The notes under the pieces were generated by a model, which saw nothing but the letters and a program-made list of their open reading frames with translations, was not told the origin of the DNA and did not search any database. Below are positions 41,105 through 44,641 of a DNA stretch of 55,142 nucleotides, in pieces (the first letter of the stretch is position 1; each line of letters opens with the position of its first letter). Position numbers and translations under genes: made by a program. This stretch comes from Desulfobacterales bacterium (lineage in GTDB: Bacteria > Desulfobacterota > Desulfobacteria > Desulfobacterales > Desulfosalsimonadaceae). Where the stretch lies: contig JAGYOX010000003.1 of NCBI GenBank assembly GCA_018399235.1, positions 1 through 55,142 of the forward strand, read 5' to 3'.

Positions 41105-41181
41105 TGCGGGGTGGAGCAGTTAGGTAGCTCGTCGGGCTCATAACCCGAAGGTCACAGGTTCGAATCCTGTCCCCGCTACCA
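41105..41181 (+). tRNA. Initiator tRNA-Met (anticodon CAT)
   Basis: 77 nt with encoded CCA. The anticodon stem has the three G-C pairs of initiators (GGGCTCATAACCC) and the 1-72 pair is a mismatch (T-T here rather than C-A), both marks of tRNA-fMet. D-arm GAGCAGTTAGGTAGCTC, T-arm ACAGGTTCGAATCCTGT. Its 3' 45 bp, from the anticodon loop to CCA, are the attachment core copied at 42885 and 44597. Confidence 0.96.
41137..41181 (+). repeat. att core, copy 1 (3' part of tRNA-fMet)
   Basis: 45 bp from CTCATAACCCGAAGG to CCGCTACCA. Exactly repeated at 44597-44641, and with two changes at 42885-42929. The core starts at the anticodon loop, a common crossover place for tRNA-targeting integrases (general knowledge). 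Confidence 0.9.
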
Positions 41182-41277
41182 TTCCTATATTTTTCCAGAT
41201 AGTTATCCGTCCTATTCTTTTCCCATTTTTTCGATCACCTTCGGGTGGCACACAATTAGTACACTTTTTTTGGTTTT

Positions 41278-41304
41278 TATTTCGATTATTTCATGTATTT
41301 CATA
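41278..41304. repeat. Iteron triplet, copy 1
   Basis: Three contiguous 9-mers: TATTTCGAT, TATTTCATG, TATTTCATA, preceded by AGTACACTTTTTTTGG. Matches copies at 42769 and 44480 but is not followed by the 90-bp spacer and att core. Confidence 0.7.
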
Positions 41305-41444
41305 AAAATATTTTTTGATAATTGTTTGAATTTAAATTAAATATAAAAATATCAAGGAGTTATAAATTGTTAAATTGTCTTCATTTTGATAGAAAGGATA
41401 TTGCATGGGGCTATTTTTAATATATGCATAATTTGTAATTTTAA

Positions 41445-41473
41445 TTGACAATTTATGCATAAAATGATAATTT
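41445..41473 (+). promoter_or_regulatory. Candidate promoter of the cassette 1 ATPase
   Basis: TTGACA (41445-41450), 17-bp spacer, TAATTT (41468-41473), only 7 bp before the ATG, which would give an almost leaderless mRNA. Two ATGCATAA boxes flank TTGACA (41424-41431 and 41455-41462) and could be operator half-sites. Confidence 0.45.
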
Positions 41474-41480
41474 GTCACAT

Positions 41481-42656
41481 ATGATACCTCGTACCTTAGA
41501 AAAGAAATTATTCGAACTTTCTGGTTATTATCCAGCAGTTGTTGTCACAGGCCCACGCCAGTCCGGCAAAACAACTCTGTGCCAAATGGCATTTCCGGAT
41601 AAGGCTTATGTTTCGCTGGAAGCCTTGGATATACGCGATTTTGCCATTAATGATCCCCGAGGATTTCTTGCAGAATATGCGGATGGCGCCATAATTGATG
41701 AAGTCCAGAACGCGCCGGATCTGCTCAGTTATTTGCAAAGTGATATTGATGCGCGCCCTCAACCCGGACGTTTCATACTGACCGGCTCTCAGCACTTTGG
41801 CCTGTCGCAGTCAATTTCGCAATCTCTTGCAGGGCGCTGTGGTATTTTAGTTCTATTGCCCCCCAGTCTTGAAGAACTTCGTTCATTTCAAAACGCTCCT
41901 GATAATTTATTTTCTATTCTCTGGCAGGGATCTTATCCCAGAATTTACGATCAGAATATCCCGGCACAGCAATGGCTGGCCGATTATACTGCGACATATG
42001 TACAACGTGATGTCCGACAGGTAATTAATATCGGAGATCTTCAAACCTTTTCCGGCTTCCTTAAACTCTGCTCAGGTCGTACGGCTCAGGAAATCAACCT
42101 TTCAGCCATTGGCAGTGATACCGGTGTTTCCCACAACACTGTTCGATCCTGGTTGTCTGTGCTGGAAACCAGCTTCATTATTCACCGTCTGCCGCCATTG
42201 CATAGCAACATTCGAAAACAGATTGTTAAAGCGCCCAAGCTGCATTTTTTTGACTCCGGACTGGCATGCTATCTCCTGGGTATCCAGGAACCGGATCAAC
42301 TTTACCAACATCCGCTTCGAGGGGCAATCTTCGAAAGCTGGGTTATTTCTGAAATTTTTAAAGCGACCGTTCATGGCGGTATACAGCCACGAATCTTTCA
42401 TTATCGAGAAACACGCGGTCTTGAAATTGATTTGATTATTGAACAGGCAAAAGGGTTGGATGCTGTTGAAGTAAAATCGGGAGCTACAGTGTCAGAGAAT
42501 TTTTTCAAAAACCTTGAAAGCTTTTCTGATCGCCTTAAAAGCGCTGCCGTCAAATACCCGGTGCGAAGGTACGTTGTTTATGGTGGCGATCATACTCAGA
42601 AACGCTCCAAAGCTCAGGTTTTATCCTGGCGTGACGTTCACAAGTTAGCCCTTTGA
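41481..42656 (+). CDS. AAA ATPase with C-terminal DUF4143
   Basis: 391 residues from the ATG at 41481; a TTG three codons upstream is less likely. AAA_14 domain: VVVTGPRQSGKTTLCQMAF (Walker A near 25-33), DGAIIDEVQNAPDLL (Walker B), FILTGSQHFGLSQSISQSLAG; C-terminal DUF4143 from about 195 with FFDSGLACYLLGI, FESWVISEI and the nuclease-like FHYRETRGLEIDLIIE...VEVKSGA, which holds an E/D-ExK arrangement typical of PD-(D/E)xK folds. Family members are frequent in accessory DNA and their role is unclear. Sole gene of cassette 1, so a defence or stabilising function is an inference. Confidence 0.88.
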   Translation: MIPRTLEKKLFELSGYYPAVVVTGPRQSGKTTLCQMAFPDKAYVSLEALDIRDFAINDPRGFLAEYADGAIIDEVQNAPDLLSYLQSDIDARPQPGRFILTGSQHFGLSQSISQSLAGRCGILVLLPPSLEELRSFQNAPDNLFSILWQGSYPRIYDQNIPAQQWLADYTATYVQRDVRQVINIGDLQTFSGFLKLCSGRTAQEINLSAIGSDTGVSHNTVRSWLSVLETSFIIHRLPPLHSNIRKQIVKAPKLHFFDSGLACYLLGIQEPDQLYQHPLRGAIFESWVISEIFKATVHGGIQPRIFHYRETRGLEIDLIIEQAKGLDAVEVKSGATVSENFFKNLESFSDRLKSAAVKYPVRRYVVYGGDHTQKRSKAQVLSWRDVHKLAL

Positions 42657-42742
42657 ATATGAATGTTTTTCATAATAAAAGCAAATGATGGACAAACAAA
42701 ATGGGCTTTCAATCCATAATTTTAAGCCACAATGCCTGTTGG

Positions 42743-42940: not shown

Positions 42941-42986
42941 AATAAAGTCAAGGAATTGTCGAAGTTGGCAATTCCTTGACTTTATT
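42941..42986. repeat. Perfect 18-bp inverted repeat at the left end of cassette 2
   Basis: AATAAAGTCAAGGAATTG (42941-42958), 10-base loop, CAATTCCTTGACTTTATT (42969-42986), 11 bp after the att core. Could be a bidirectional terminator insulating the cassette or a binding/recombination structure. Confidence 0.85.
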
Positions 42987-43066
42987 GCCAAAAAAGCAAT
43001 ACCCAACACTATACCCAACAGAGAAGTTTAAAATCCCCTATGTCAGGATCTCCTTAAAATTTTTAG

Positions 43067-43095
43067 TTGACAACAGGCTTTTTGAAAGATACATA
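43067..43095 (+). promoter_or_regulatory. Candidate promoter of the AbiE pair
   Basis: TTGACA (43067-43072), 17-bp spacer, TACATA (43090-43095), about 30 bp before the chosen ATG at 43126. Its presence inside the longer open frame is the main reason for preferring the shorter start. Confidence 0.55.
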
Positions 43096-43125
43096 ATTAA
43101 CAATAATGATAATTATGTATGCCTG

Positions 43126-43728
43126 ATGAAACTATTAGAGCTGAAAAAAATTAACAAATTTTCCTTTGGATATGAGGACATCGCCAGGGTTCTTGGGATC
43201 AGCCCTGCTTCGGCAAAGGTAACCGCCAGTCGATACACAAAACAGGGGATATTGTTGCGGTTCAAGAAAAACCTGTATCTACTTAGAGAGACCTGGGATA
43301 AAGCTTCCAGGGAGGAAAAATTCTCGCTCGCCAATCTCGGTCAGGTTCCTTCCTATATATCTTTTATGACCGCTCTGGACTACTATGAAATCACAACCCA
43401 GGTTCAGCGGGATTTTTTCGAGTCCGCGGCAGTCAAGAGGTCTAAAGAAATTAATTTGGATGGCAACGTCTTTCGGTATATCAAGCTTGCTCAAAATCTG
43501 TATGATAATTTTAAGAAAGAAAAGAATTTCTTTATTGCAACCCCTGAAAAAGCGCTTTTGGATTCATTTTACCTGATGTCCTTTGGCCGCTATAGTTTTG
43601 ACCTTTCATCACTGGATGAAACGAAATTCAACCCACAGCAAATAAGACGGTTGAGCCGAAAATATCCGTTAAAGACTAAAAATGTGCTGAAAAAATATGG
43701 ATATCTTGAGTCAACACGAAATATTTGA
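43126..43728 (+). CDS. abiEi: AbiEi-like antitoxin (type IV)
   Basis: 200 residues from the ATG at 43126; an open frame extends 50 codons upstream but crosses the hairpin and promoter. N-terminal winged helix (YEDIARVLGISPASAKVTASRYTKQGILLRFKKNLYLL) is the AbiEi transcriptional-regulator domain; the C-terminal part with SYISFMTALDYYEI, IATPEKALLDSFYLMSFG and RRLSRKYPLK is typical of the family. Antitoxin and autorepressor in the AbiE abortive-infection system. Overlaps the toxin gene by 32 bp. Confidence 0.82.
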   Translation: MKLLELKKINKFSFGYEDIARVLGISPASAKVTASRYTKQGILLRFKKNLYLLRETWDKASREEKFSLANLGQVPSYISFMTALDYYEITTQVQRDFFESAAVKRSKEINLDGNVFRYIKLAQNLYDNFKKEKNFFIATPEKALLDSFYLMSFGRYSFDLSSLDETKFNPQQIRRLSRKYPLKTKNVLKKYGYLESTRNI

Positions 43729-44365
43729 GATAGAAATTCTTGAGAAAATGAACAGCGCAAAGTTGCTTGAGCCAATTGTTTTTGGTGGCGGCACAATGTT
43801 GAGGCTCTGTCATGAACTGAACCGCTACTCTGCAGATCTTGATTTCTGGTTTATCAGAAAAATTTCTCACCAAAATTACGCAGATAAAGCACAAAATGCT
43901 TTGGGAAAAGAATATGACATTACTGACGCCACCATCAAGAAAAACACACTATTGTTTGAATTACGGTCTGGGAGTTATCCAAAAAGACTCAAAATAGAAA
44001 TCCGGAGACAATTAAAGGAATGCGATTATCAGAAAACAATTGCATTTTCCAAGTTCACCTCAAAACAGGTTCTCGTAAACGCCCACACGCTCCAGCAAAC
44101 AATGGAAAATAAGATAGACGCGCTCCTTGATCGTGGTGAAATAAGAGACTGTTTCGATATTGAATTTCTAATTCGCAGAGGCGTTTCCTTGCCCGATCTC
44201 TCTACCATTACAGTCGCCAACCTCCTTAAAAAAATATCAAAATTCAAGGACATCGACTTCAAAGTAAAGCTTGGCTCTATTCTGGAAAAAGATGTCCGCA
44301 ACTATTACGTGGAAAACAGATTCAGTTTTCTCGAAGCTAAGCTAAACGCGTTAAATCCAAGCTGA
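43697..44365 (+). CDS. abiEii: AbiEii-like nucleotidyltransferase toxin
   Basis: 222 residues. Nucleotidyltransferase core FGGGTMLRLCHELNRYSADLDF gives the GG/S and the DxD metal pair; KIEIRRQLKE, ENKIDALLDRGEIRDCFDIEFLI is the conserved helical C-terminal block with the Lys/Asp pattern of AbiEii. In studied systems the enzyme modifies tRNA or other RNA with nucleotides and arrests growth during phage infection. The frame overlaps abiEi, as usual for these pairs. No Shine-Dalgarno is obvious, consistent with translational coupling. Confidence 0.85.
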   Translation: MDILSQHEIFEIEILEKMNSAKLLEPIVFGGGTMLRLCHELNRYSADLDFWFIRKISHQNYADKAQNALGKEYDITDATIKKNTLLFELRSGSYPKRLKIEIRRQLKECDYQKTIAFSKFTSKQVLVNAHTLQQTMENKIDALLDRGEIRDCFDIEFLIRRGVSLPDLSTITVANLLKKISKFKDIDFKVKLGSILEKDVRNYYVENRFSFLEAKLNALNPS

Positions 44366-44454
44366 ATATAGAAAATTGGATAAGATAGTCTATGAGACGC
44401 CGGGTTTTTCAAGTGGAATCATTCATGGACGATTACTTTGAAAAAAACTGGTAC

Positions 44455-44641
44455 AGAATCAGCCCTTTTTTTTATCACCTATTTCGATTATTTCACTTAT
44501 TTCGAAAAACTGCTGATATGAAAATAAGTTGGAATTAAAGGGAAGCCATGAATGTCAAGGGGTTTATGTTGATATTAAAACGGGGTTTTAACCAAACTCA
44601 TAACCCGAAGGTCACAGGTTCGAATCCTGTCCCCGCTACCA
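44455..44641. repeat. 187-bp cassette-end module, copy B
   Basis: AGAATCAG, T-run, iteron triplet TATTTCGAT/TATTTCACT/TATTTCGAA (44480-44506), 90-bp spacer with TTAAAGGGAAGCCATGAATG, then an exact 45-bp tRNA-fMet core (44597-44641). Same length as copy A with scattered substitutions. Confidence 0.87.

Follow-up and report, generated by a model that had tools for sequence, protein, structure and literature searches.

A 55,142 bp stretch of DNA from a Desulfobacterales bacterium of the family Desulfosalsimonadaceae (assembly GCA_018399235.1, contig JAGYOX010000003.1, positions 1 to 55,142; hereafter the window) was found to carry two tandem, integrase-free cassettes at the 3′-end of an initiator tRNA gene, tRNA-fMet. 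On balance, the locus is probably an accretion hotspot, and the two cassettes residues resembling cis-mobilizable elements (CIMEs), left when mobile elements accumulated at the tRNA and a deletion then ran across an inner copy of the tRNA-derived core. What is new is the chimeric nature of the cassette ends, their small size and the repeated defence-type cargo; the layout itself is known in kind. The window is part of a metagenome-assembled genome (MAG), designated G000, that comprises 299 contigs and is 92.8% complete.

The target is an intact tRNA-Met gene (Table 1), which we take to be of the initiator type from its 1:72 mismatch and the three G-C pairs below the anticodon loop. The core consists of the last 45 nucleotides of this gene, and a core scan agreed with the preliminary description, made from the letters of the window, in placing three direct copies at 41137, 42885 and 44597. 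These copies are in register and delimit two intervals of 1748 bp (cassette 1) and 1712 bp (cassette 2). The first base of the anticodon loop is where the stretch common to the window cores starts, as the preceding bases differ. Scanning of the whole window with up to 14 mismatches allowed revealed only these three copies on the + strand and, on the − strand, a single match at the 14-mismatch limit. Both att-type core sides were therefore retained around both intervals, as in CIMEs. No recombinase was found among the ORFs (open reading frames) and Pfam matches of either interval, or on the contig, which upheld the earlier view of the intervals as core-bounded and integrase-free, and no transfer genes were seen in the ORF list of the two intervals. 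Neither cassette has the integrase of its own that an autonomous tRNA-targeted element would carry.

Elements that do encode tyrosine integrases were present at tRNA-fMet in relatives and represent at least two families: type X, with a G048-like integrase and CCMAC-like repeats, and type Y, the GGTACA group, with a G104-like integrase. The type X integrases of G236, G294, G033 and G299 were 60–65% identical to that of G048, and all were located at tRNA-fMet. The G048 element (L106, G048:C11, reverse strand) extended over 2.66 kb from the tRNA core (5218) to a partial core (7874) and encoded the integrase, a HVO_A0114/TumE-type toxin pair and one more small ORF between identical repeats on both sides; a decayed second unit lay behind it. 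It is the smallest type X member seen and looks autonomous. Integrases related to type Y (E ≤ 1e-40) were found in 21 of 389 genomes of the order. Six genomes of the order encoded one at 55–100% identity, which was beside tRNA-Met in five (G104, G049, G077, G316, G352) and after a partial fMet core in the sixth (G299); an 82% fragment was also present at the site in G068. GGTACA repeats followed the core in G104, G077, G049 and G068. In G104, a single-contig genome, the element covered 20.9 kb from tRNA-fMet to a core copy, and the DNA examined contained no further core; its integrase (PF00589, PF14659) reads toward the tRNA, and it carries a type-I-restriction-like gene set, named by eye. G077 encoded the same kind of integrase at the tRNA, with a module of the type described below and a core approximately 29.5 kb away. 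Distant Y-like integrases were located at tRNA-His in G242 and at transfer-messenger RNA (tmRNA) genes in G249, G159, G021 and G008, and no tRNA was found in the DNA examined near those of G125, G261 and the second G049 locus. L173 (G021:C174) and L174 (G008:C14) encode 36% relatives of the type Y integrase on DNA with tmRNA, one of them in the same genus.

The preliminary description had given both cassettes shared ends. This held for the right ends, where module plus core showed 87% identity over 188 bp between the two intervals; the left ends differ, and carry repeats of another integrase type. The right-end modules, R1 in cassette 1 and R2 in cassette 2, belong to the type Y side: a diverged module was found at the same distance from the core at the right ends of the G104 and G077 elements, which links the cassettes by descent to integrase-bearing elements. 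The nhmmer matches concerned stood just before a partial fMet core, in G077 (E 4.8e-5), G104 (E 0.01) and G277 (E 0.03). A third, degenerate module without a core was detected between 41,250 bp and 41,387 bp. The nhmmer model was built from five modules, this copy among them; a separate blastn alignment gave it 82.5% identity over 126 bp to the module of G019. It is probably the residue of a lost cassette, so that at least one further cassette probably once stood to the left. Beyond the last core, a probable type Y left arm-like repeat, GTGGTACAATTTTGGACC, was located at +69 from the core, near but not equal to the +60/61 seen in four type Y loci. It was the sole match to its pattern, for which 0.17 matches were expected when up to 2 mismatches were allowed; the final three letters of that pattern, however, had been chosen to fit this repeat.

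Searches of related genomes, as the preliminary description had proposed, showed that the module recurs with different cargo. A query of module plus core matched 25 of the 36 family genomes, mostly at a bare tRNA, and the module itself was found in three (G000, G019 and G029). The same three were the only exact matches to the module pattern among the 389 order genomes; up to 2 mismatches gave 10 matching genomes, compared with one match for a reversed control pattern. Four of the other seven (G035, G165, G079, G320) were looked at, had no core in the DNA examined and were taken as chance, as was one match on a viral contig, inside a coding region and without a core. The pattern misses the diverged modules of G104, G077 and G277. 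G019 and G029, which represent two genera other than that of the window, each have one integrase-free cassette at tRNA-fMet. That of G019 encodes a DUF4143 protein, a Polbeta/NTP-transferase and a HepT-like protein; in G029 the cargo is another DUF4143/AAA_14 protein, encoded on the opposite strand. Both are situated between tRNA-fMet and an acyl-CoA ligase gene that directly follows the tRNA in G007 and G027. The site was thus seen with no cassette (G007, G027), one (G019, G029), two (the window) or integrase-bearing elements. The ligase, the 3′ neighbour of tRNA-fMet in relatives, was not found within the window, and the right boundary given here for the array is provisional. The DUF4143 protein of the window was 93% identical to that of G019, compared with 70% for homoserine dehydrogenase, which indicates transfer of this cargo between genera. 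A simple assembly duplication is unlikely, given that R1 and R2 differ by about 14% and that two other MAGs have the same layout. A number of contigs ended at, or a few hundred bases from, a tRNA-fMet core (G023:C8 and C3, G008:C11, G003:C12, G017:C117, G019:C117 and C144, G020:C552), as would be expected of a site that is repeat-containing or differs among members of a population.

The left end of cassette 2 has a tRNA-terminator-like hairpin, of a kind seen after many other fMet cores among the matches listed, followed by the type X arm-like repeat TACCCAACACTATACCCAACA. This repeat equals the one found on both sides of the G048 element; elsewhere in the window it was matched only once, at 22965, with 3 mismatches. 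Cassette 1 has neither the hairpin nor the TACCCAACACTATACCCAACA repeat, its left repeat having been lost, and starts with 68 bp of unassigned DNA followed by the degenerate module. To pair the ends, left ends were locally aligned with right ends in 14 fMet elements that have both, and 18 candidate right ends were ranked. An integrase match was present in the DNA examined for 12 of these 14 (a fragment only in G150), with none within the DNA examined for G336 and G277. The element's own right end was the best match in 9 of the 14 (G033, G016, G008, G253, G325, G204, G150, G294, G236), where self-matching was through a pair of repeats approximately 12 bp apart. In none of the three cassettes with a left end did the cassette's own right end come first: of the 18, it ranked 9 in cassette 2 of the window, 10 in G019 and 6 in G029. 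Their left ends scored best against the type X elements G294, G236 and G033; that of G029, for example, scored 42 with the right end of G033 and 17 with its own. All three therefore depart from a CIME that keeps both arms of one ancestral element.

A stack of the kind that could give rise to such ends was found in the complete genome G299 (L189/L188/L162, G299:C1, about 5948600–5970500), where a prophage, whose right end carries a type X integrase, stands next to tRNA-fMet and is itself succeeded by a core copy and then a Y-like integrase. In these relatives the same tRNA-fMet core serves at least two integrase families. A deletion across the inner core of G299 would leave a piece whose left end is of type X and whose right end is of type Y, of the general kind seen in the cassettes. 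We therefore propose that type X and type Y elements insert at the core, between the anticodon loop and the CCA end, each new element re-creating the tRNA so that elements stack. A deletion that starts within an X element on the left and ends within a Y element on the right would then take out both integrases together with the inner core. What is left would be short, consisting of the X left end, some cargo and the Y right end with its core; defence or toxin-antitoxin cargo would probably be kept by selection. In the window, two pieces of this sort would be present, along with the right end of one more; past the last core there would be a probable residue of a Y left arm. If the repeats are arm sites, as we infer, the residues would behave as CIMEs: any residual mobility would depend on the action of an incoming integrase at their ends, and they would otherwise be inert.

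Several observations weigh against this reading. R1 and R2 were 86% identical, compared with only 64.5% for R1 and the G019 module, so that local duplication or conversion is needed in addition. End pairing is a tendency: the own right end ranked 4 in G104 (shuffle p 0.055) and 3 in G077 (p 0.09), each matching the other's right end best, and it did not come first in G336, G277 or G026, where the repeats fell outside the stretch used. Cassette 1 matched its own right end (score 46, rank 3), owing to the module remnant at its start. Alignment alone does not separate the cassette right ends as type Y, that of G029 scoring 19 with the left end of G104 and 23 with that of G026, so that they are assigned by the homology of the module and by motif; beyond core 3 the sequence likewise scored at best 21, compared with 18 for unrelated ends, and is assigned to Y by motif and place. 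The module matches of G104 and G277 were weak, and the G077 element is known from its ends and may contain other inner cores. Other repeats accompany the integrases of G316, G352 and G299, so that GGTACA is not common to the whole integrase group. In G299 the second integrase was only 60% identical to that of G104 and is accompanied by repeats other than GGTACA, and the 39 kb examined to its right contained no core, for which reasons we call it Y-like rather than proven Y. No deletion intermediate was seen, and the occurrence of an X left end with a Y right end in three of three cassettes could have a functional reason.

Alternatively, the cassettes may belong to a live system, being excised and inserted in trans by the X or Y integrases of passing elements, much as satellites are, and accumulating singly at tRNA-fMet. 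The recurrence of the module with different cargo in three genera, the transfer of DUF4143 between genera, the intact cores and the repeats kept at both ends of cassette 2 and of the G019 and G029 cassettes all agree with this, and the findings in G019 and G029 answer the objections that the module might be absent elsewhere or the cassettes one fixed block. In Streptococcus agalactiae, moreover, an integrative and mobilizable element (IME) and a decayed integrative and conjugative element (ICE) with unrelated integrases excise singly via a chimerical att site, and composite excision occurs from the attL of the ICE as well (available text of PMC5704250), so that hybrid ends need not be dead. 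Against it stand the mismatched ends of all three cassettes that have a left end, the lost left repeat of cassette 1 and the rarity of the close module form, found only in the three order genomes and two stretches of the genome collection. The preliminary description had also looked to an integrase encoded elsewhere in the genome, beside the same core. Seven tyrosine-recombinase matches were found in G000, none on the contig of the window, one directly beside tRNA-Leu and one approximately 0.2 kb from tRNA-Asn, but no type X (1e-30) or type Y (1e-40) integrase was detected in this assembly, whose completeness leaves room for a missed helper. G019 had neither integrase; G029 had a 33% relative of X and no Y integrase. 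Comparison of the sequences neither showed nor excluded a live cassette-accumulating system, and we consider it unlikely. The stronger proposal that the chimeric ends are functional, minimal defence cassettes being moved when both integrase families meet at tRNA-fMet as a dual-helper, integrase-free system in Desulfobacterota, seems to us improbable.

It is about as doubtful that each cassette arose by the shrinkage of one Y element, with left repeats from older flanking relics that mimic a second type. CCMAC-like relic repeats do also occur to the right of the last core in G104 and, as a single half-site, in G019. However, the repeat of cassette 2 in the window, like those of G019 and G029, is inside the cassette, directly after the left core, which is the position at which integrase-bearing elements carry their own left repeat. 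Movement of the cargo by homologous recombination (gene conversion) between core and module repeats, without an integrase, would account for R1 being so much closer to R2 than to the G019 module, though the DNA of the DUF4143 block is 88% identical between the window and G019 over 1328 bp, and tandem repeats favour recombination. Repeats of under 200 bp with about 13% differences are, however, a poor recombination substrate, and the arrival of the cores and repeats is left unexplained; we consider this the most improbable of the explanations.

The layout has counterparts elsewhere, and the suggestion that the layout was undescribed does not stand: att-flanked, integrase-free tandem units are known both as CIMEs and as Dehalococcoides islands. 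CIMEs of Streptococcus are flanked by att sites, lack integration and transfer genes, stack at one site and are thought to originate by decay and re-insertion (PMC5704250, in the text available). The window cassettes resemble them in being integrase-free, bounded by att-type cores and stacked at one site, and differ in their 1.7 kb size, in having one defence-type function each and in ends from two integrase families. We call them CIME-like because the integrase is missing and the cores are retained, yet the two arms do not come from one element. At the ssrA gene of Dehalococcoides, tandem islands stand 3′ of the RNA gene between direct repeats of its 3′-end, and 15 islands without an integration module were suggested to be cis-mobilizable (PMC3146451, likewise in part). 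These are likewise integrase-free tandem units at the 3′-end of an RNA gene, but involve a serine recombinase, tmRNA and a 20-bp repeat, whereas here there are tyrosine integrases, tRNA-fMet and a 45-bp core. Integron cassettes and clusters of attC sites lacking integron-integrases (CALINs) are also integrase-free arrays with a common end sequence, variable cargo and possibly a distant integrase (accessible portion of PMC11389934). They differ from the window in that here there are tRNA cores and arm-like repeats and the module has no structured single-strand fold: six folds gave z values of 0.32 to −1.40, with no excess structure, which ruled out an attC-like folded site. A literature search on integrase-less tRNA or toxin-antitoxin islands returned no match, and one on initiator tRNA and Desulfobacter nothing relevant, as judged by title. 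Tycheposons and similar satellites are targeted to tRNA genes and have variable cargo, but are larger and usually encode their own recombinase. At the level of sequence, the locus suggests how complete mobile elements may be reduced, at a tRNA hotspot, to defence islets with a single function. The combination of chimeric ends and defence-gene islets is unusual and testable; the mismatch of left and right repeats is a simple marker for chimeric residues in other genomes, and autonomous-looking relatives down to 2.7 kb make residual mobility directly testable.

Table 1. Features of the tRNA-fMet locus and its cassettes (positions in the window)
Feature	Position	Strand	Support
Intact tRNA-Met (cat), initiator type, target gene	41105..41181	+	ARAGORN
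Core copy 1 (anticodon loop to CCA), inside tRNA	41137..41181	+	0 mismatches
Third right-end module, degenerate, type Y, without core	41250..41387	+	nhmmer 3.1e-22; blastn
DUF4143/AAA_14 ATPase, cassette 1 cargo (PDC-S01 defence candidate)	41484..42656	+	Pfam, PADLOC
Right-end module R1, type Y; TATTTCG-like repeats of ~9 bp	42743..42884	+	
Core copy 2 (partial tRNA)	42885..42929	+	2 mismatches
18-bp perfect inverted repeat, tRNA-terminator-like hairpin, left end of cassette 2	42941..42986	.	
Type X left arm-like repeat TACCCAACACTATACCCAACA	43000..43020	+	0 expected in shuffles
AbiEi-like antitoxin, cassette 2	43123..43728	+	Pfam, PADLOC
AbiEii nucleotidyltransferase toxin, cassette 2	43697..44365	+	Pfam, PADLOC
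Right-end module R2, type Y	44455..44596	+	
Core copy 3 (partial tRNA)	44597..44641	+	0 mismatches
Probable type Y left arm-like repeat GTGGTACAATTTTGGACC, right of last core	44710..44727	+	

Pfam and PADLOC agreed with the earlier assignment of one accessory function to each cassette. The ATPase of cassette 1 matched PF13635 (1.5e-46) and PF13173 (4.8e-23), and PADLOC identified its DUF4143 as the candidate PDC-S01 (7e-100). In cassette 2 the AbiEi_4 match, at 25.3 bits, was barely above the 25-bit cut-off, with a PADLOC value of 6e-21 for AbiEi; AbiEii was matched by Pfam (4.7e-17) and PADLOC (1.5e-95). DUF4143 was rejected as a marker for cassettes, as 10 other relatives (L178–L187) had neither the module nor an fMet tRNA in the DNA examined. 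An ORF of 175 amino acids (44,575 bp–45,102 bp, − strand) without a Pfam match, the C-terminal part of which spans the last core and the type Y residue, has the appearance of a gene truncated where the array ends. Upstream of the DUF4143 gene there is an imperfect palindrome (41,413 bp–41,471 bp), at which homology to relatives elsewhere starts, and just 5′ of AbiEi an inverted repeat, ATACATAATTA...TAATTATGTAT (43,089 bp–43,120 bp); each is a possible operator.

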